From Candidatus Thalassarchaeaceae archaeon (lineage in GTDB: Archaea; Thermoplasmatota; Poseidoniia; Poseidoniales; Thalassarchaeaceae), in contig JASMLH010000009.1 in assembly GCA_030748775.1 (NCBI GenBank), positions 1 to 39,808 of the forward strand: a stretch of 39,808 nucleotides of DNA, given 5' to 3'. Shown here piece after piece: positions 268-34,971 of this stretch. The notes below the pieces were generated by a model, which was given only the letters and a program-made list of their open reading frames with translations, ran no database searches and was not told the DNA's origin. The stretch's first letter is position 1. Each line of letters opens with the position of its first letter. A program made the position numbers and the translations under genes.

Positions 268-289
268 CTGTTCAGGCTGGTCATTGGGA

Positions 290-1234
290 ATGTTCATGGT
301 GGCATTTTGTCCGATTGGTTCTATGGGCGAGATGCTGTACAAGGGAAAGGTCAAGCAGGTTTGGAGCACTGAAGATCCCGATATTATTGAATTTAGGTAC
401 ACTGATCAGATTTCTGTTTTTGACCAGATTATACCTAGCCTTATTCCAAGGAAGGGTGAGTCATTGAACCGGGCTTCTTGTCATTGGTTTGGATTGTTAG
501 AGGAAGAGGGGATTTGCAAGACCCACGTAATAGAGATGAATGCCCCCGACAGGGTTCTAGCGAGACGATTCGATGTTATTAGAGAGCCTGGCTCGATTCC
601 AAAGGACGCCGAGAACTTCTTCGTCCCACTGGAGGTGATTTGCCGGCACTACCTTGCAGGTACTGCATGGAGGAGGTACCAGAGAGGAGAAGTCTCCCCG
701 GAGGACTTCGGCTTCGAAATGGGTGTGGAACTCACAGAAGGGGTGAAACTTCCCAAGCCGTTCCTGGAGGTCTCGACAAAGTTCGAGAAATTTGATCGAA
801 ATCTGGACAGGGAGGAAGCTCTACAGATTTCCAATCTTGAGTCCGAAGAACTCGACTCACTCCTCGCCATTGTCCTGGATGTCGACTCAGTGATCGACCG
901 TGAGACTTCCAAGAGGGGCCTAATCCATGTCGATGGAAAGAAGGAGTTTGCCCTAGGCCCTGGACGAGAGCCTGTTCTGATTGACTCATTCGGAACCTTG
1001 GATGAGGACAGATGGTGGGATGCTGAAGCCTACAATAAAGGCCAGATTGTCCAGCTCTCCAAGGAGTCAGTAAGACAGTACTACATTGATTCTGGGCATC
1101 ACTCAGAGCTTTACGAAGCACGGCAGACAGGGGCCGATGAGCCACCCATCCCTCCCTTGCCTGACTACTTGATCGAAAGCACGGCGGAACTATACGCGAC
1201 GATGTTCGAGCGCCTCACTGGAGAGGCTCTCTGA
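290..1234 (+). CDS. purC: SAICAR synthetase (phosphoribosylaminoimidazole-succinocarboxamide synthase)
   Basis: This enzyme makes SAICAR from CAIR, aspartate and ATP in de novo purine synthesis. The family is recognised by the N-terminal nucleotide-binding motif LYKGKVKQVW (about residues 16-25), then SVFDQIIPSLIPRKG. In the C-terminal half lie DGKKEFALGPG (about 215-225) and DSFGTLDEDRWWD, the region holding the metal and substrate ligands. The length of 314 aa is typical of the longer PurC type. The start is not certain: TTG 284, ATG 290, ATG 323 and ATG 332 are all in frame. ATG 290 is chosen because of the TATA-like box 26 nt upstream. It is the first gene of a three-gene operon; the next gene begins 9 nt after its stop. 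Confidence 0.95.
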   Translation: MFMVAFCPIGSMGEMLYKGKVKQVWSTEDPDIIEFRYTDQISVFDQIIPSLIPRKGESLNRASCHWFGLLEEEGICKTHVIEMNAPDRVLARRFDVIREPGSIPKDAENFFVPLEVICRHYLAGTAWRRYQRGEVSPEDFGFEMGVELTEGVKLPKPFLEVSTKFEKFDRNLDREEALQISNLESEELDSLLAIVLDVDSVIDRETSKRGLIHVDGKKEFALGPGREPVLIDSFGTLDEDRWWDAEAYNKGQIVQLSKESVRQYYIDSGHHSELYEARQTGADEPPIPPLPDYLIESTAELYATMFERLTGEAL

Positions 1235-1243
1235 GGGACATAG

Positions 1244-2152
1244 ATGGGTACGCACGAGTACACGGATGATCCTAGGAACGAAAACGTGCAGATTTCGATC
1301 AACGGACGCCTCTATCCGAGGGAGGATGCAAAGGTCTCGGTTTTTGACTCGGGTTTCTTACTCGGCGATGGCGTTTGGGAATCATTCAGGTTACACAATG
1401 GGAAGCTAGCTTTCTTGGATGATCATCTGGATAGGCTGTTCAACGGGGCAGCGGAGATTTCCATGCATCCCCAGAGAGAAAGGGAAGAAATCATCCATGA
1501 GATACAAAGGGTAGTAGAAGCTAATGGTATGGATGACGATGTGCATCTTCGCCTAATCCTGTCAAGGGGCCTCAAGCCTACTCCATATCAAGCACCGTGG
1601 GTGATTTCCAGCCCTCCAACATTGGTGATTATCCCCGAATACAAGAAAGCGAATCCACTTAGAGCTAAGGAAGGCATCAGCCTAGTTTCAGTTGATACAA
1701 TTAGGGGAAGCGACAATATTCAGAATCCTAGGATCAATAGCCTATCGAAGCATAACTGCATAGCAGCCTGCGTCGAGGCTTCGGAGAAGGGGGGCGACGA
1801 GGGCCTAATGCTGGATCCACATGGTTTCGTCTCCACTTGCAATTCGACTCATTTCTTCATGGCCAAGGACGGAGAAGTATGGACCTCTACCGGGGAATAC
1901 TGCCTTGATGGGATTACTCGGAGGAAGGTCCTCGAGCTTTGTCTCCAAAACGGAATCCCTTGTTCGGAGAAGAACTTCACTTTGGACGACGTTAGATGCG
2001 CCGATGAGGCCTTTGTCACTGGCACCTTTGCAGGCCTGACTCCCGTTGTTTCATTCGATGGAGAGCAAATGAGTGGGGGGGAGAGGGGGCCAATTTGTGA
2101 AAAGTTGCAGGAACTATACATCTCCTTAGTGGAGGATGAATGCAGTGACTGA
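1244..2152 (+). CDS. Class IV aminotransferase-fold protein (BCAT/D-amino acid aminotransferase-like) with atypical active site
   Basis: The fold-type IV PLP signature is present: SVFDSGFLLGDGVWESFRL (32-50), the DDHLDRL phosphate-site Arg (R64), GITRRKVLELC (224-234) and TGTFAGLTPV (259-268), as in IlvE and D-alanine aminotransferase. A gapless alignment by eye of INSLSKHNCIAACVEA (164-179) to the family pattern IKSLN...EA puts Asn165 where the PLP Lys should be; a Lys occurs four residues later (K169). At FVSTCNS (195-201) the Glu that normally pairs with the PLP pyridine nitrogen is Thr198. It may therefore be a subfamily with a displaced Lys, or a non-transaminating relative. ATG 1244 follows a GAGGGA Shine-Dalgarno. 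The next gene overlaps it by 17 nt and is sulfotransferase-like. The fold is sure; the reaction is not. Confidence 0.85.
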   Translation: MGTHEYTDDPRNENVQISINGRLYPREDAKVSVFDSGFLLGDGVWESFRLHNGKLAFLDDHLDRLFNGAAEISMHPQREREEIIHEIQRVVEANGMDDDVHLRLILSRGLKPTPYQAPWVISSPPTLVIIPEYKKANPLRAKEGISLVSVDTIRGSDNIQNPRINSLSKHNCIAACVEASEKGGDEGLMLDPHGFVSTCNSTHFFMAKDGEVWTSTGEYCLDGITRRKVLELCLQNGIPCSEKNFTLDDVRCADEAFVTGTFAGLTPVVSFDGEQMSGGERGPICEKLQELYISLVEDECSD

Positions 2153-10701: not shown

Positions 10702-11661
10702 TCAAGTCCCAAACTCGCTCCAGCTCCCATCATTGGTCAGCACCATTTCCCCGATAATCCCAACACCAATACCATCCCTGCTGAAATACTTGGGACTCCC
10801 ATTGGAAAGAATCCCATCATGCCTCCAACCGGTCCATCTCCATTCACCATCAACTATAGCAGCATCCAATACGGGACCAGGAGTCTTCACCACGACCTCC
10901 TCTTCCTCGATCCTTTGAACCGACAATAGTGAACCACCATGCATCATCATCATCCATCCGCTTCCCTCTGAGTAGGAAACTCCGGCAATCTTGTCACCGA
11001 TGTCCAGAACTTTAGAGAAAATAGTCGATCCGTTTGACGGATCGATAACCACCACTCCCCCTGCCTGAGACAGAATTGCTACTCCCCCGGGAATGCCTTG
11101 GACGCAAATAATTCTGTCAATAATGCCCATTCTCGAAATCTCTGGCCACAATGGAAGCTCCTCTCTCCATATCTCTCTAGCTTCCTTGTCAACCATATAC
11201 ATCCCCGAAGCCGTGGTGAAGACCAAGTCCCCTCCCGACTGACCCATCTTCATTGGTTCGGAATCTAGGGTACGACTCCAAATTGATCCTGCAGGCCGTA
11301 GGTCTCGTCCAGAAGATGTCACTAATCGCAACTCTTCCCTGTTAGGTCCATTGATCCATTCCCCATCGAATGGCAGTGCAGCCATTCTGCATTCTCCAAA
11401 TTCCCTATCTAGCCAAACACCCACCCACCTGTCATCCAGGCATACACCGTCGACACACGGTGCTGGGAAAGGCTTGGAACCAACTCCGATTGGCTCTCCA
11501 TTTTCATCAATCCTGAGCAACTCACCTTGGGTTCCTGCCAAAATATTCGCATTCCCGCCCTTGTCGATTCTTAGGGGCGGGAAGCCAATGTACTCGCGAC
11601 TCACAACCTGGGTCCGTCGTTCAGGTATTGAAATGATGCCCGAGAATATTGAAACCTGCAT
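10702..11661 (-). CDS. Probable cytoplasmic beta-propeller protein, 319 aa
   Basis: No catalytic motif is seen. The sequence is built of repeating short beta-strand units typical of WD40/PQQ-like propellers, such as NILAGTQGELLRIDENG, GDLVFTTASGMYMVDKEAREI and VAILSQAGGVVVIDPSNG. No signal peptide or membrane helix remains once the start is placed at ATG 11661 (MQVSIFSG), which has a TATA-like TTATT block at 11685-11689. ATG 11667 is almost as good. The longer in-frame opening to 11742 would run through the divergent dtdA coding region and is less likely. Function is unknown; next to ribosomal and tRNA-editing genes it may be a scaffold. Confidence 0.7.
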   Translation of the reverse strand: MQVSIFSGIISIPERRTQVVSREYIGFPPLRIDKGGNANILAGTQGELLRIDENGEPIGVGSKPFPAPCVDGVCLDDRWVGVWLDREFGECRMAALPFDGEWINGPNREELRLVTSSGRDLRPAGSIWSRTLDSEPMKMGQSGGDLVFTTASGMYMVDKEAREIWREELPLWPEISRMGIIDRIICVQGIPGGVAILSQAGGVVVIDPSNGSTIFSKVLDIGDKIAGVSYSEGSGWMMMMHGGSLLSVQRIEEEEVVVKTPGPVLDAAIVDGEWRWTGWRHDGILSNGSPKYFSRDGIGVGIIGEMVLTNDGSWSEFGT

Positions 11662-11691
11662 CGTCATCACCAAACATGGGCATCTTATTGG
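11642..11691. promoter_or_regulatory. Interlocked divergent promoters
   Basis: Plus-strand AATATT (11645-11650) lies about 29 nt before dtdA ATG 11676 and inside the start of the leftward propeller gene. The reverse-strand AATAA (11685-11689) lies about 26 nt before ATG 11661 and inside dtdA. If both genes are leaderless, the intergenic gap is 14 nt and each promoter lies in the other gene's coding sequence. Confidence 0.4.
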
Positions 11692-12611
11692 TCGCATCCA
11701 GGGCAGACCCAGCATCGATGAACATAATGCATGCATTAACATCGTCTGGCGGATGGAAAGATCCAGAGAAATTCACTCATGGAGATGTGAGAAAAAACAA
11801 TTACACCGAAGCCCATATATTGGAAATTGACGATCTCCACATTTGGTCGGATGGAATCGACGAAATCCACCAGACTGAAACTGGCTTGGAGGTATCTGAA
11901 GTTCTTGTATTGTCCCGGCATGTGTCTAATAGCGAAGTTCCTGCCTTGACCCTTCATGCGATTGGAATACCCGGGGAAACACCTCATGGAGAGAAGGGAA
12001 TGGCAGGGGGAATCAAGGGACAGGTTGTCCCTCCCTCACCTAGGTTCGGGCCCCTATTCAGGGAAATGAGTAGAATTGCAGCAGAACATGGAGTTGATGG
12101 GGACTACGACATCACCCTCGAGGCCACTCATCACGGACCGTCGCTTTCTCGTCCAACATTGTATTTGGAGATAGGATCCACCCCTGAAAGGTGGGCCGAT
12201 AAAAGGGCGGCTGCTGTATGGACCGAAGCAATCTCGAAGTGCCTTGGACTAAATGGGGGTGAACAAATAGGACAATGGAAGGGAGAAGGTGACGTGATGG
12301 TCGGCCTCGGTGGTGGCCACTACGCTCCTCGACACCGTGCAATAATTTCGGAGTCCGAGGTATGGGTTGGTCACATATTGGCAGGGTATGCATTGGATTT
12401 TCAGGAACAGGATTCTTCAGGCCTCCTACCATCGGGAAATTGGCAGCATGCAGTTGAGAAATCCATAGAATCAACACGTTCTGCCTTTCCAGGAGGTCGC
12501 ATCTTCGTCCACTTGGATAAGAAGTCATTCAAGGGTTGGCAGAGAGAAGCACTGCGCCATCTATTAGCAGAAATTAACGTCCCCATCCTTAGGGGAAGGG
12601 ACATACTTTGA
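11676..12611 (+). CDS. dtdA: D-aminoacyl-tRNA deacylase (archaeal DtdA/GEK1 type)
   Basis: This enzyme hydrolyses D-amino acids mischarged onto tRNA, such as D-Tyr and D-Asp, and keeps translation homochiral. The 311-aa protein starts MGILLVASRADPASMNIMHA, the usual N-terminus of archaeal DtdA. It carries LEATHHGPSL (around 148-157), LEIGSTPERW, and GLGGGHYAPRHR (around 210-221), the zinc-binding and catalytic signature. ATG 11676 is preferred over an upstream in-frame ATG because it matches the family start and fits a leaderless promoter. It overlaps the proline dehydrogenase gene by 4 nt, so the two are probably co-expressed. Confidence 0.95.
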   Translation: MGILLVASRADPASMNIMHALTSSGGWKDPEKFTHGDVRKNNYTEAHILEIDDLHIWSDGIDEIHQTETGLEVSEVLVLSRHVSNSEVPALTLHAIGIPGETPHGEKGMAGGIKGQVVPPSPRFGPLFREMSRIAAEHGVDGDYDITLEATHHGPSLSRPTLYLEIGSTPERWADKRAAAVWTEAISKCLGLNGGEQIGQWKGEGDVMVGLGGGHYAPRHRAIISESEVWVGHILAGYALDFQEQDSSGLLPSGNWQHAVEKSIESTRSAFPGGRIFVHLDKKSFKGWQREALRHLLAEINVPILRGRDIL

Positions 12612-13627
12612 CCCCACAATCGTCAAGTCTCGCCTCTATCTCTGATGCGACTATGGGGATAGTGGGGAGGTCGATTGTTGGCTTGCTTCCACTGGCACCA
12701 CGCTTCTTTGTGAGATGGGTAGCTAAGCGATATGTGGCTGGAGAGAGCTTGGATCAGGCACTGGAAGTAATGAAGAGAATTTCTTCCGAGGATGCTTGCT
12801 TTACAATCGATGTTCTTGGTGAGGAGATAAGTACTCTGGCCGAGACTTCATTTTTCATCGATGAGTACGGAAGGGTCCTAGATGCAATTGCCTCAAATGG
12901 AATAGATGCAAACATCTCGATCAAACCAACCGCTTTCGGACTTCTGATTGACCAAGAGGCTGCAATCGACAACATAGAGAGAATTGTTAGAAGGGCAGCG
13001 GAGGATGAAATTTTCGTAAGGTTAGATATGGAGGATAGCAGAGTCACACAACCAACCATAGATGTCTTATTTTCTATTCACGAACGAGGATTGACGAACA
13101 TCGGCCTGGCGATCCAGGGTCGTTTGAACAGATCTATCTCTGACATAAACAATATCTGCGACAGTCTTGGCCCGGATTCAGATTTCAGAATCTGCAAAGG
13201 AATCTACCTCGAACCCGAAGAAATCGCGAGGACTGACTACAGGGGGATTGTCGACTCCACAAATGACGCTATCGATGCTGCAATTGCAAGGGGATCATAC
13301 GTGGCCATTGCATCTCACGATGATCCGGTGATTGAGCACTCCCTAGCATCCTTATCCTCGAATGGCATGGGTCCGGGGAAAACCGATCCTCGCCCAAATT
13401 CACCCCCTTCTAGAACTGGCAAGGGTTCGGGATACGAATTCCAGTTCTTACTTGGAGTCAGAGGGGATGTAAGGAGAGCACTGAGCTCAGATGGTCACCT
13501 TACTAGGGTATACCTCCCATATGGTGCGCGCTGGTATGAGTACAGCATGAGGAGACTTCGAGAGAACCCTGAAGTTGCAGTGCATGTAACAAAGGCGTTA
13601 CTGATGCCTTGGACCAATCGTAGGTGA
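12608..13627 (+). CDS. Proline dehydrogenase (monofunctional, FAD-dependent)
   Basis: Proline dehydrogenase oxidises proline to pyrroline-5-carboxylate, passing electrons to the quinone pool through FAD. The 339-aa protein shows the PRODH TIM-barrel: RYVAGESLDQALEVMKRI (39-56 region), ANISIKPTAFGLLID, VRLDMEDS, IGLAIQGRLNRS, and near the C-terminus YEFQFLLGVR and RVYLPYGARWYEYSMRRLREN, which hold proline-binding Arg residues. It has no P5C dehydrogenase domain, and no such gene is in the window. The TTG at 12608 overlaps the dtdA stop (TTGA) behind AGGGGAAGGGAC; ATG 12653 is a good alternative. Its 3' end abuts the convergent zinc-finger gene with no gap. Confidence 0.93.
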   Translation: MTPQSSSLASISDATMGIVGRSIVGLLPLAPRFFVRWVAKRYVAGESLDQALEVMKRISSEDACFTIDVLGEEISTLAETSFFIDEYGRVLDAIASNGIDANISIKPTAFGLLIDQEAAIDNIERIVRRAAEDEIFVRLDMEDSRVTQPTIDVLFSIHERGLTNIGLAIQGRLNRSISDINNICDSLGPDSDFRICKGIYLEPEEIARTDYRGIVDSTNDAIDAAIARGSYVAIASHDDPVIEHSLASLSSNGMGPGKTDPRPNSPPSRTGKGSGYEFQFLLGVRGDVRRALSSDGHLTRVYLPYGARWYEYSMRRLRENPEVAVHVTKALLMPWTNRR

Positions 13628-31875: not shown

Positions 31876-34800
31876 ATGGCATTGTCTCACAACCAATATG
31901 CGGTGGCAGCAATAGCCGCCACCCTATGTTTAGCAGGCCTCTACACCGTGGTAGGGGCAGGCCTTTCAAGTACCGACTCAGGCGGTTTCGAGTCTGCAAT
32001 TGATGACGTAGAACTAGGCTCCGATGGCTCCCCACGCGAGTGTCCACCCGATGTCCCCACCATTGGATGTGACTGGGATGGAGATGGGATAGCAGATCGA
32101 ATGGAGAACACTCTCTATGGGACAAACTGGCAAGAAGCAGACACGGATGGGGACGGATTGGAGGACGGTTGGGAGATTGAGAACGGCCTAGATCCCCTTG
32201 ATACTGGAGAACCCTGTATTTCGATTGGCGAAGGTTTGACTGAGGTTGAGTGCGAGGATATTCAGATTAACAGTGTCGATACTGAGCAGGAGACTGGCGA
32301 GCAGAATGAGACATTCCCGAATCCCGACAACGGGCCCCTTGGAGACCCTGATAGAGACGGTCTAACAAATCTAGATGAAGCTGCATTGGGGACAAATCCC
32401 AGACTTAAGGATACGGATGGGGATGGCCTCAACGACAGATGGGAGTCATCACATACCCACGATGTGACTACTCCTTCCGGAGTGGTAACGTTGCTGGACC
32501 CTCTGGATGGAAACTGGAACTGCCCCCTTCTTACGCCAGAAAGGCAGGCTGAGATTCGACTTGATTTGGGCGAGGATTTGTGGGAGGAGATGGGGACTCA
32601 GTTCGGGCACTCCTGTGATGCAATTTTGGATCTAGAGCAGCCCGAACCGGATACTCTCAGAAATTTCGTAGAGGAGAGGTATGACACCAATCCACTTGAC
32701 GAGGATAGTGATGGTGACCTCATCGACGATAGGTACGAGATAGCCTACGGGCCAATCAACCTGGGAGTTCATTGCGGGAGACCAGTATTTGGAATCCTAA
32801 CCATTGACGCCCCCTACACCAGCCTCATGACCGGCCATGGAGACCTAACATGGTTTGAGGAGGATATGGATGGTGATGGCAGGCTAAATGGCCCAAGTGA
32901 CTGGGATTCAGACGGAGACGGAATGCCAGATGGCTTCGAATATTGCTACAATTCTCTTCTGAATCCGGCAAACTCTACAGATGCATATGGTGACAATGAC
33001 GACGATGGCCTGAACAACATCGAAGAGTTCGAGGTCTCGTATACATGGGGCCCTTCCAACTTTACAGATCCACTAGACTGGGACACTGACAATGACGAAA
33101 TGCCTGACGGCTGGGAGCACCAGAGTGGAATCCACCCAAATGATGGAAGCAATGCAGACGAAGACCCGGACTTCGATGGTTATGATGCAGATGGGGATGG
33201 TGCGGTAACCTACAAGGACATGGTGGGCGCATCTACAATAGAGAGGATAGACGTACTCCCGGGTGACTATGTCCAGGTCAATCGGACAATTCTGTGGGTA
33301 AGGACGGTCGTGGATAGCAACTACGTCAACATCCCCGTGAAGACGGACACAACTGGTTGGGTTTACCACATCAATGTCGAGCCAGGTGACGAAGTAACAA
33401 GCAGACTCCAGAACCTAGTTACCGTCGTAGAACAGCACGAGCGCTTCACAAACCTCGATGAGTACAATGCCAGGGACAGGGATGGGGACGGGGTAGTTGA
33501 TGGAAGGTCCACCGATCCCCTTGAGGCAGATACGGATGCCGATGGGCTAATCGATGGGATAGAGGTTATCGGATGGAAGATTCGAATAGTTGACTTCGGA
33601 GTACGCGAGGTCATAGTTAGAAGCGATCCAGGTGTCTATGACACGGACAGGGACGGCCTGTCCGATTCCGTAGAGTACTACGAGACGTTCACGAACACTA
33701 CAGACAAGGATACTGACAATGATGGCCTGGAGGACTACAGGGAGGCAATTGACGGACATCCATGGTATGACAACGGAACCCTGGTCTACTATTTCACCAA
33801 TGCATCAGCTTTCGATACCGACAATGATGGCCTGGAGGACGGCGAAGAAGTGGTAGACGGGCGAGACATGTTTGTGACTCACGCAAACAACGCCGACACC
33901 GACAACGATGGCCTAAACGACGGGGACGAGGTCCTTTACATCCCAAGGCCTTGGCAAGGGGCAACCAATCCACTGATCAACGATACCGATGAGGATGGTC
34001 AGCCCGACGGGTGGGAGATGCAAGTCTTTTCTGTCCAGCAGAACACAAACAGCCACAGCCTATGGATCTCTACATCAAACTGGCTACCTCCGGGTTGCGA
34101 CTCAATGAGCGAGTGCGGCCTCGGTCCCGGCGGTTGGGTATGGGTCAACTATGTGAGTGGATTCTCCACATCTGGAGATCGGAACGATGACGGAGTGATG
34201 GACCCACGCTACTTCCTTCATGAGATGAATCTCTCAGGATTCTCGATTCCTGAGACTGGACGTTGGGCACTGGACCCATCATTCGGATCACCTGTGGACT
34301 CAATCTATGACATCGACAACGACTCACTACAGAACTCACTGGAGGCCCCTGACAGATGGGATACCAACCCCGTGGATGATGACTCAGATGGGGACAAGCT
34401 TCCGGATGGATGGGAGGTAAAATTCTCAGAAGAAGCACTCAGATTGGGACTCGTCGACAACAACTCGCTTGATGCGCTAGGCTCCAGGGGCCCAATGGAT
34501 CCAAGGATGCCAGACTCAGACCTAAATGGAATCAATGACGGTAACGAGGATTTGGACGATGATGGCCTGAATAGGACCGTATTGATGTACAGGTACTGTC
34601 CCGGTTGGGACAACCCCCAGGATTTCGAATGCCACATAGACCCATTCGGTTCGGGTTCCGCATTCTATGATGACCTCGAAAACTACACCAATTTCGAGGA
34701 GTTCCAGAACGGAACAAATCCAATTATCAATGACACGGATGGGGACAAATGGAACGACGGCTCAGAAGTATATCATCAGGACCAAGATGATGATGACATG

Positions 34801-34971
34801 TGGGCAGGGTGGGAGTACTATTTCGGATACGATCCCCATGACCCTTCCGACGCAATGGTAGACTCCGACGGAGACGGTTATGTGAATAAATGCGAGAGCA
34901 AGTGGAACACGAATCCGAAGGACCCAACCAGTTTCCCTTCCCAGGGGGAGTTATGCAGTAACTACGACTAG
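31876..34971 (+). CDS. Secreted thrombospondin type 3 (TSP3) repeat protein
   Basis: The 1031-aa protein has an N-terminal hydrophobic helix (about 8-30) that may be a signal peptide or an uncleaved anchor, then about 20 Asp-rich calcium-loop repeats such as DWDGDGIADRME, DTDGDGLEDGWE, DTDNDGLEDGEE and DSDGDGYVNKCE. These match bacterial and archaeal TSP3-type repeats, which bind calcium and stiffen extended surface proteins. Near residues 455-520 a beta insert without such loops interrupts the array. No C-terminal membrane helix is present, unlike the other two giants. ATG 31876 follows GAGGGCGGGGG. Its 3' end faces guaC. Confidence 0.88.
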   Translation: MALSHNQYAVAAIAATLCLAGLYTVVGAGLSSTDSGGFESAIDDVELGSDGSPRECPPDVPTIGCDWDGDGIADRMENTLYGTNWQEADTDGDGLEDGWEIENGLDPLDTGEPCISIGEGLTEVECEDIQINSVDTEQETGEQNETFPNPDNGPLGDPDRDGLTNLDEAALGTNPRLKDTDGDGLNDRWESSHTHDVTTPSGVVTLLDPLDGNWNCPLLTPERQAEIRLDLGEDLWEEMGTQFGHSCDAILDLEQPEPDTLRNFVEERYDTNPLDEDSDGDLIDDRYEIAYGPINLGVHCGRPVFGILTIDAPYTSLMTGHGDLTWFEEDMDGDGRLNGPSDWDSDGDGMPDGFEYCYNSLLNPANSTDAYGDNDDDGLNNIEEFEVSYTWGPSNFTDPLDWDTDNDEMPDGWEHQSGIHPNDGSNADEDPDFDGYDADGDGAVTYKDMVGASTIERIDVLPGDYVQVNRTILWVRTVVDSNYVNIPVKTDTTGWVYHINVEPGDEVTSRLQNLVTVVEQHERFTNLDEYNARDRDGDGVVDGRSTDPLEADTDADGLIDGIEVIGWKIRIVDFGVREVIVRSDPGVYDTDRDGLSDSVEYYETFTNTTDKDTDNDGLEDYREAIDGHPWYDNGTLVYYFTNASAFDTDNDGLEDGEEVVDGRDMFVTHANNADTDNDGLNDGDEVLYIPRPWQGATNPLINDTDEDGQPDGWEMQVFSVQQNTNSHSLWISTSNWLPPGCDSMSECGLGPGGWVWVNYVSGFSTSGDRNDDGVMDPRYFLHEMNLSGFSIPETGRWALDPSFGSPVDSIYDIDNDSLQNSLEAPDRWDTNPVDDDSDGDKLPDGWEVKFSEEALRLGLVDNNSLDALGSRGPMDPRMPDSDLNGINDGNEDLDDDGLNRTVLMYRYCPGWDNPQDFECHIDPFGSGSAFYDDLENYTNFEEFQNGTNPIINDTDGDKWNDGSEVYHQDQDDDDMWAGWEYYFGYDPHDPSDAMVDSDGDGYVNKCESKWNTNPKDPTSFPSQGELCSNYD

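Follow-up and report, generated by a model that had tools for sequence, protein, structure and literature searches.

Genes at the Locus

The DNA analysed here, referred to as the window, is a stretch of 39,808 nucleotides from a Candidatus Thalassarchaeaceae archaeon. Its host genome is a 0.89-Mb, 58%-complete assembly, and among named organisms it is closest to Candidatus Thalassarchaeum and other marine group II archaea. The gene of interest encodes a protein with the fold of class IV aminotransferases, called here the AT-like protein. It lies 9 nt downstream of an apparent purC gene and overlaps the start of a gene for a Sulfotransfer_5 protein (ST), an arrangement that likely reflects translational coupling. 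The coordinates of these and other features are collected in Table 1.

Several further genes occur in the window. An open reading frame without a Pfam match converges on the ST gene, and since ORFs of similar length occupy the same place at related loci (L041 and L044), the one in the window is probably genuine. A D-aminoacyl-tRNA deacylase gene overlaps a gene of the proline dehydrogenase family, and three long reading frames, those with FG-GAP/CARDB, DUF7151 and InhA-like MAM, or TSP3-repeat signatures, probably encode large surface proteins.

Table 1. Features of the window; residue numbers refer to the AT-like protein.
Feature	Position	Strand	Basis
Apparent purC	284..1234		
Class IV aminotransferase-fold protein without catalytic Lys, 302 aa	1244..2152	+	ORF, ATG start
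Arg64 codon agg, phosphate-site arginine	1433..1435	+	Alignment; 93/93
Asn165 codon aat, Schiff-base Lys position	1736..1738	+	Gapless alignment to 5mqz and 7z79; 93/93
Lys169 codon aag, position of the Tyr contacting PLP O3' in BCATs	1748..1750	+	Alignment; Halhy Y147 = K143+4
Thr198 codon act, in place of the Glu pairing with PLP N1	1835..1837	+	Halhy E176 = K143+33
GITR motif, residues 223-226, phosphate cup	1910..1921	+	Conservation of Thr225, Ile/Val224 and Arg226
TGTFAGLTPV motif, residues 259-268, phosphate cup Thr261	2018..2047	+	Gly260 and Thr261 93/93
Overlap of AT-like and ST genes, 17 nt	2136..2152	+	Sequence; overlap or near-contact retained in relatives
Sulfotransfer_5 protein (ST), 247 aa	2136..2879	+	Pfam PF19798, 2.8e-43
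ORF converging on ST gene, 206 aa	2876..3496	-	No Pfam match
FG-GAP/CARDB protein, 1897 aa	3512..9205	-	
D-aminoacyl-tRNA deacylase gene overlapping proline dehydrogenase-family gene	11649..13627	+	
Protein with DUF7151 and InhA-like MAM domain, 2412 aa	17897..25135	+	
TSP3-repeat protein	31876..34971		

A Class IV Fold with an Altered Active Site

By both sequence and fold, the AT-like protein belongs to the Pfam family Aminotran_4. It matches the profile with E=1.4e-41 and 143 bits (cut-off 28.5) over positions 1-222 of 223, and its AF2 model (mean pLDDT 88), in which a helix starts at residue 165, finds its best Foldseek match in chain B of PDB entry 7Z79 (7z79_B; TM 0.92), with branched-chain aminotransferases (BCATs) following at TM 0.85-0.88.

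The active site was read in two ways. In the HMMER alignment to the archaeal BCAT 5MQZ, the relevant segment is gapless (PRINSLSKHN in the window, PNIKSLNYLN in 5MQZ) and places Asn165 at the catalytic Lys and Lys169 at the Tyr. Spacing was taken from the D-amino acid transaminase of H. hydrossis (Halhy), whose active site comprises K143, Y147, which contacts the phenolic oxygen of PLP, and E176 at N1, and whose phosphate contacts are R52, I202, T203 and T239 (PMC8401098). Counted from the Lys, Halhy-type spacings lead to N165, K169, T198, I224, T225 and T261 in the window protein, while R64 comes from the alignment; the offsets of E176, T203 and T239 from K143 are the same as those of T198, T225 and T261 from N165 (+33, +60 and +96). 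An earlier note, made from the DNA alone, had assigned Asn165 to the Schiff-base Lys position and Thr198 to that of the N1 Glu, with Arg64 and the GITR and TGTFAGLTPV motifs retained, and both readings agree with it throughout. A misalignment is ruled out by the gapless alignment together with the spacing equal to that of Halhy.

The protein thus lacks both the catalytic Lys and the N1 Glu of a class IV enzyme. Lys, Glu and Tyr, which contact the cofactor ring, have all three been replaced, while the phosphate cup of Arg, Ile/Val-Thr and Thr is retained as R64, I224-T225 and T261. This same pattern would be expected if the cup held some other phosphorylated small molecule with no vitamin B6 cofactor at all. 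However, the fold and the remainder of the pocket are very near those of the BCATs, and the residue changes could equally tune B6 chemistry, so that this alternative, although a serious one, is rather unlikely.

Comparison with characterised structures helps to define what is unusual. The archaeal BCATs 5MQZ and 5E25 (~35% identity) have the fold and phosphate cup in common with the AT-like protein but possess the three residues that differ here, namely catalytic Lys, N1 Glu and O3' Tyr. A hydroxyl residue opposite PLP N1, like Thr198, is found in the E177S mutant of D-amino acid aminotransferase (1G2W), which nevertheless is engineered and retains its Lys. The nearest PDB match by sequence is 7Z79, an aminotransferase-like protein of Variovorax paradoxus deposited in 2022 (E=2.3e-75, ~42% identity), which belongs to the same family and clade. 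In it, Asn takes the place of the Lys, Ser that of the Glu and Arg that of the O3' Tyr, and the branch it comes from has no ST neighbour. A further entry, 9J32 (2025), is titled "mutant N174K" and carries a Lys at the equivalent of N165, indicating that the crystallographers locate the missing lysine there too. The loss of the Lys is therefore already known in one family member. No paper describing 7Z79 or 9J32, including their apo or holo state, was found in the open-access library searched.

Conservation and Descent of the Family

The family alignment proposed in the earlier note was assembled from 93 sequences including that of the window, the other members being 43-85% identical to the window protein and spanning marine archaea, Proteobacteria, Marinimicrobia, Chloroflexota and one actinomycete bin. 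Asn165 is invariant (93/93) across archaea and bacteria. Position 198 is Thr in 88 sequences and Ser in 5, and position 169 is Lys in 88 and Arg in 5. Loci were fetched with two DNA patterns, one of which spans position 198 and slightly favours its conservation; N165 lies outside both. Within the phosphate cup, R64, T225, Gly260 and T261 are each present in 93/93 sequences, Arg226 in 92/93, and position 224 is Ile or Val. R64, N165, K169 and T198 are found in all 19 genus relatives. Against a 93%-identical relative, the AT-like gene shows dN ~0.04 and dS ~0.63, and the resulting dN/dS of ~0.06 points to strong purifying selection. The gapless alignment, the invariant Asn and this low ratio refute the notion that the altered site is an artefact of misalignment, sequencing error or gene decay, whose probability is now negligible.

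These frequencies also bear on the two explanations offered in the earlier note, namely that the Lys has moved or that the protein serves another purpose by binding PLP or a phosphate ligand. Position 169 is close to the pocket and basic in every member, as would suit an ordinary PLP transaminase in which K169 forms the Schiff base. Yet the V. paradoxus-type branch has Arg there (5/93), which cannot form a Schiff base; K169 lies one helical turn past N165, on the helix that starts there in the AF2 model, and the alignment and the published contacts put it at the O3'-contacting Tyr; and the deposited Lys-restoring mutant 9J32 sits at the Asn position. A relocated lysine is accordingly very improbable. 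The second explanation, by contrast, is indirectly supported by the invariance of the phosphate cup, and is kept.

In a rapidly built tree, some of whose outgroup branches are long, the Asn family forms a single clade separate from Lys-bearing BCATs (SH-aLRT 99), within which the archaeal sequences cluster with two from Marinimicrobia (support 98). Among Thermoplasmatota, its members score 411-510 bits with the family profile vs ≤285 for other class IV proteins. Of the latter, those that were read lie outside the Asn clade, and all retain Lys and Glu at these positions except L123, which has His. A viral occurrence of the Asn family was not seen among 165 pattern matches. A housekeeping BCAT role is unlikely, given that most relatives also carry a second, separate class IV gene.

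A second Lys-less type was encountered among more distant Thermoplasmatota class IV proteins (L140:5898-6848, and also L123), in which His stands at the Schiff-base position (KIHTFNKMN). The L140 protein has a Lys four residues after the His and keeps the N1 Glu, and no ST gene lies nearby.

Taken together, the AT-like gene belongs, with near certainty, to a monophyletic class IV-fold subfamily under purifying selection in which Lys has become Asn, Glu has become Thr or Ser, Tyr has become Lys or Arg, and the phosphate cup is intact, and whose genes are mostly the first of a two-gene unit with Sulfotransfer_5.

The Sulfotransferase Partner

The ST protein has the features of a PAPS-dependent sulfotransferase, including a 5'-PSB loop, an R-x7-S 3'-phosphate motif and a Lys-His strand; its conserved motifs are an SGPRNIST loop, a YQKHM strand and RxPxxVxxS (RDPREVIAS). 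Its AF2 model (pLDDT 93.5) gives modest Foldseek matches, at TM 0.4-0.55, to PAP-bound tyrosylprotein sulfotransferases such as TPST1 and to the ST domains of curacin and olefin synthases. The dN/dS of the gene is ~0.11. No Sulfotransfer_5 (PF19798) member with a known substrate was found in this analysis.

The pairing of the two genes is widely conserved. ST lies directly downstream of the AT-like gene, mostly overlapping it, in all 19 genus relatives carrying the latter. When the window ST protein was used as query, homologues were detected at 76 of 80 GTDB loci, and of the four loci without a match, L059 is truncated by a contig end. At 74 of the 80, ST follows immediately on the same strand or lies within 0.2 kb, and at most of these the two genes share an estimated few to 22 nt; the exceptions are L075, where it is found 2.5 kb downstream, and L100, where it is upstream and divergent. 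Phyla with such loci include Pseudomonadota, Thermoplasmatota, Fidelibacterota, Chloroflexota and Actinomycetota. Both families (ST matches >300 bits) occur in the same 17 of 243 sampled Thermoplasmatota genomes and are adjacent in 17/17. Within families and genera the pair has a patchy distribution, consistent with its loss or lateral transfer as a unit. No conserved third gene was recognised in the module beyond lineage-specific neighbours. At two marine-group-III-like (MGIII-like) loci (L051:3684-4622 and L065:5058-5993), a gene for a DAO-family FAD oxidoreductase shares bases with the start of the AT-like gene.

The Sulfotransfer_5 partner described here is encoded adjacent to the AT-like protein and not fused to it. 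Plants have BCAT-like proteins with a putative N-terminal domain of the Sulfotransfer_5 type. A search of the open literature for publications on aminotransferase-sulfotransferase gene pairs returned nothing relevant. With the loss of the Lys itself already known, the pairing with a sulfotransferase, of which no description was found, is the new and testable part of these results. Given this association, the two proteins probably take part in one process.

Branches Without a Sulfotransferase

Two clades of the family lack the ST gene. The first comprises V. paradoxus and plasmid relatives from Pantoea, Pseudomonas, Agrobacterium and Thioclava, the plasmid members being 44-46% identical to the window AT-like protein. 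These close relatives of 7Z79 adjoin amino-acid ABC transporters, several having a ClC-type channel nearby as well and two a ProC homologue; for instance, L036, L037 and L039 combine the transporter with a chloride-channel gene, and L037 and L039 also have the ProC homologue. The second clade, from Roseobacter-type plasmids, is located near TRAP transporters, regulators or unrelated genes.

The frequent proximity of these branches to transporters suggests that ST is not needed for the AT-like protein to act, in which case the latter probably works on a small imported amino compound. The context of L036, L037 and L039 suggests that a particular amino compound, perhaps halogenated, is taken up and broken down. 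A link to fluoride was considered for the ClC-containing plasmid branch and rejected, as an Rfam search of seven loci revealed no riboswitch and no fitting defluorinase paper was found. Plasmid records label these relatives as "aminotransferase class IV" or "D-amino acid aminotransferase", labels which, if taken as activity, are not supported by the active site.

These branches also help to weigh the possibility that the AT-like protein is a pseudoenzyme, that is, a non-catalytic scaffold, ligand sensor or stabilising subunit of the sulfotransferase. The loss of an essential Lys and the near-perfect coupling to the ST gene are what such a partner would show, and this is a serious alternative. 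However, the two ST-less branches, V. paradoxus 7Z79 among them, have these same active-site residues, and a pure scaffold would need no invariant Asn, Thr/Ser and Lys/Arg in its pocket. We therefore regard the pseudoenzyme as unlikely, although worth keeping in view.

Supply of PAPS

A sulfotransferase of this kind would depend on PAPS, for whose supply in the host the evidence is partial. APS kinase was detected in 10/10 other carriers of the gene pair from the window's family and in 2/2 carriers of family f2. It was found neither in the window's own genome, which is 58% complete, nor in the four MGIII-like carriers (0/4; G042, G111, G122 and G192), and ATP sulfurylase of the PF01747 type was not found in 39 genomes. 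In several genomes of the window's family, APS kinase adjoins Sulfotransfer_3 genes, and these neighbours alone explain its presence there. At G201:C13:149955-151073 and similar places in the window's family, the two lie within a few hundred bases of each other. In genomes with such clusters, matches to PAPS reductase are weak or absent, and PAPS there may serve sulfation rather than sulfate assimilation.

Proposed Function

Most likely, the two genes form a functional module that does not carry out transamination; its Lys-less fold would bind PLP, PMP or a phospho-ligand. The AT-like protein would be repurposed but functional, handling an amino compound. As it has no Lys, no internal aldimine could form; PLP or PMP, whose binding we infer from the phosphate cup, would be held there and would enter as PMP or as an external aldimine. 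With Thr or Ser facing it, N1 of the ring would stay unprotonated, like that of the fold type II elimination and replacement enzymes, where such residues are common at this place, and this argues against classical transamination. Lys or Arg at position 169, at the O3' position, could stabilise the phenolate. ST would move a sulfonate from PAPS onto the substrate of the AT-like protein, either before or after the step of the latter. The explanation as a whole, combining a Lys-less family, a repurposed non-transaminase binding B6 or phosphate, and a sulfotransferase acting on the same substrate, is given middling confidence. Counting against it are the failure to detect APS kinase in the four MGIII-like carriers and the lack of further pathway genes conserved beside the pair.

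As to chemistry, the preferred but tentative suggestion is Lys-independent cofactor catalysis by the AT-like protein. The PMP-dependent dehydrases ColD and E1, aminotransferase-derived proteins of fold type I in which His replaces the Lys, offer an analogy in that both they and the AT-like family have naturally Lys-less active sites; they may work alike but are not homologous. A more specific and quite speculative version is a two-protein leaving-group pathway, in which ST would sulfonate a hydroxy-amino compound and the Lys-less partner, with its phosphate-anchored PLP or PMP and its Thr opposite N1, would eliminate or replace the sulfate. The ST-less branch would then use substrates already bearing a leaving group, for example a halide, which could account for the neighbouring ClC channel.

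Implications

At least 553 relatives in hundreds of genomes are annotated as aminotransferases without the residue that the reaction needs, and the missing essential Lys makes automatic labels such as D-amino acid aminotransferase doubtful for them. The overlap of the AT-like and ST genes, conserved across archaea and bacteria, provides a concrete handle on function, and a crystallised Lys-restoring mutant exists as a control. If the leaving-group pathway were true, this family would represent natural Lys-independent B6 chemistry on a class IV fold, coupled to PAPS.
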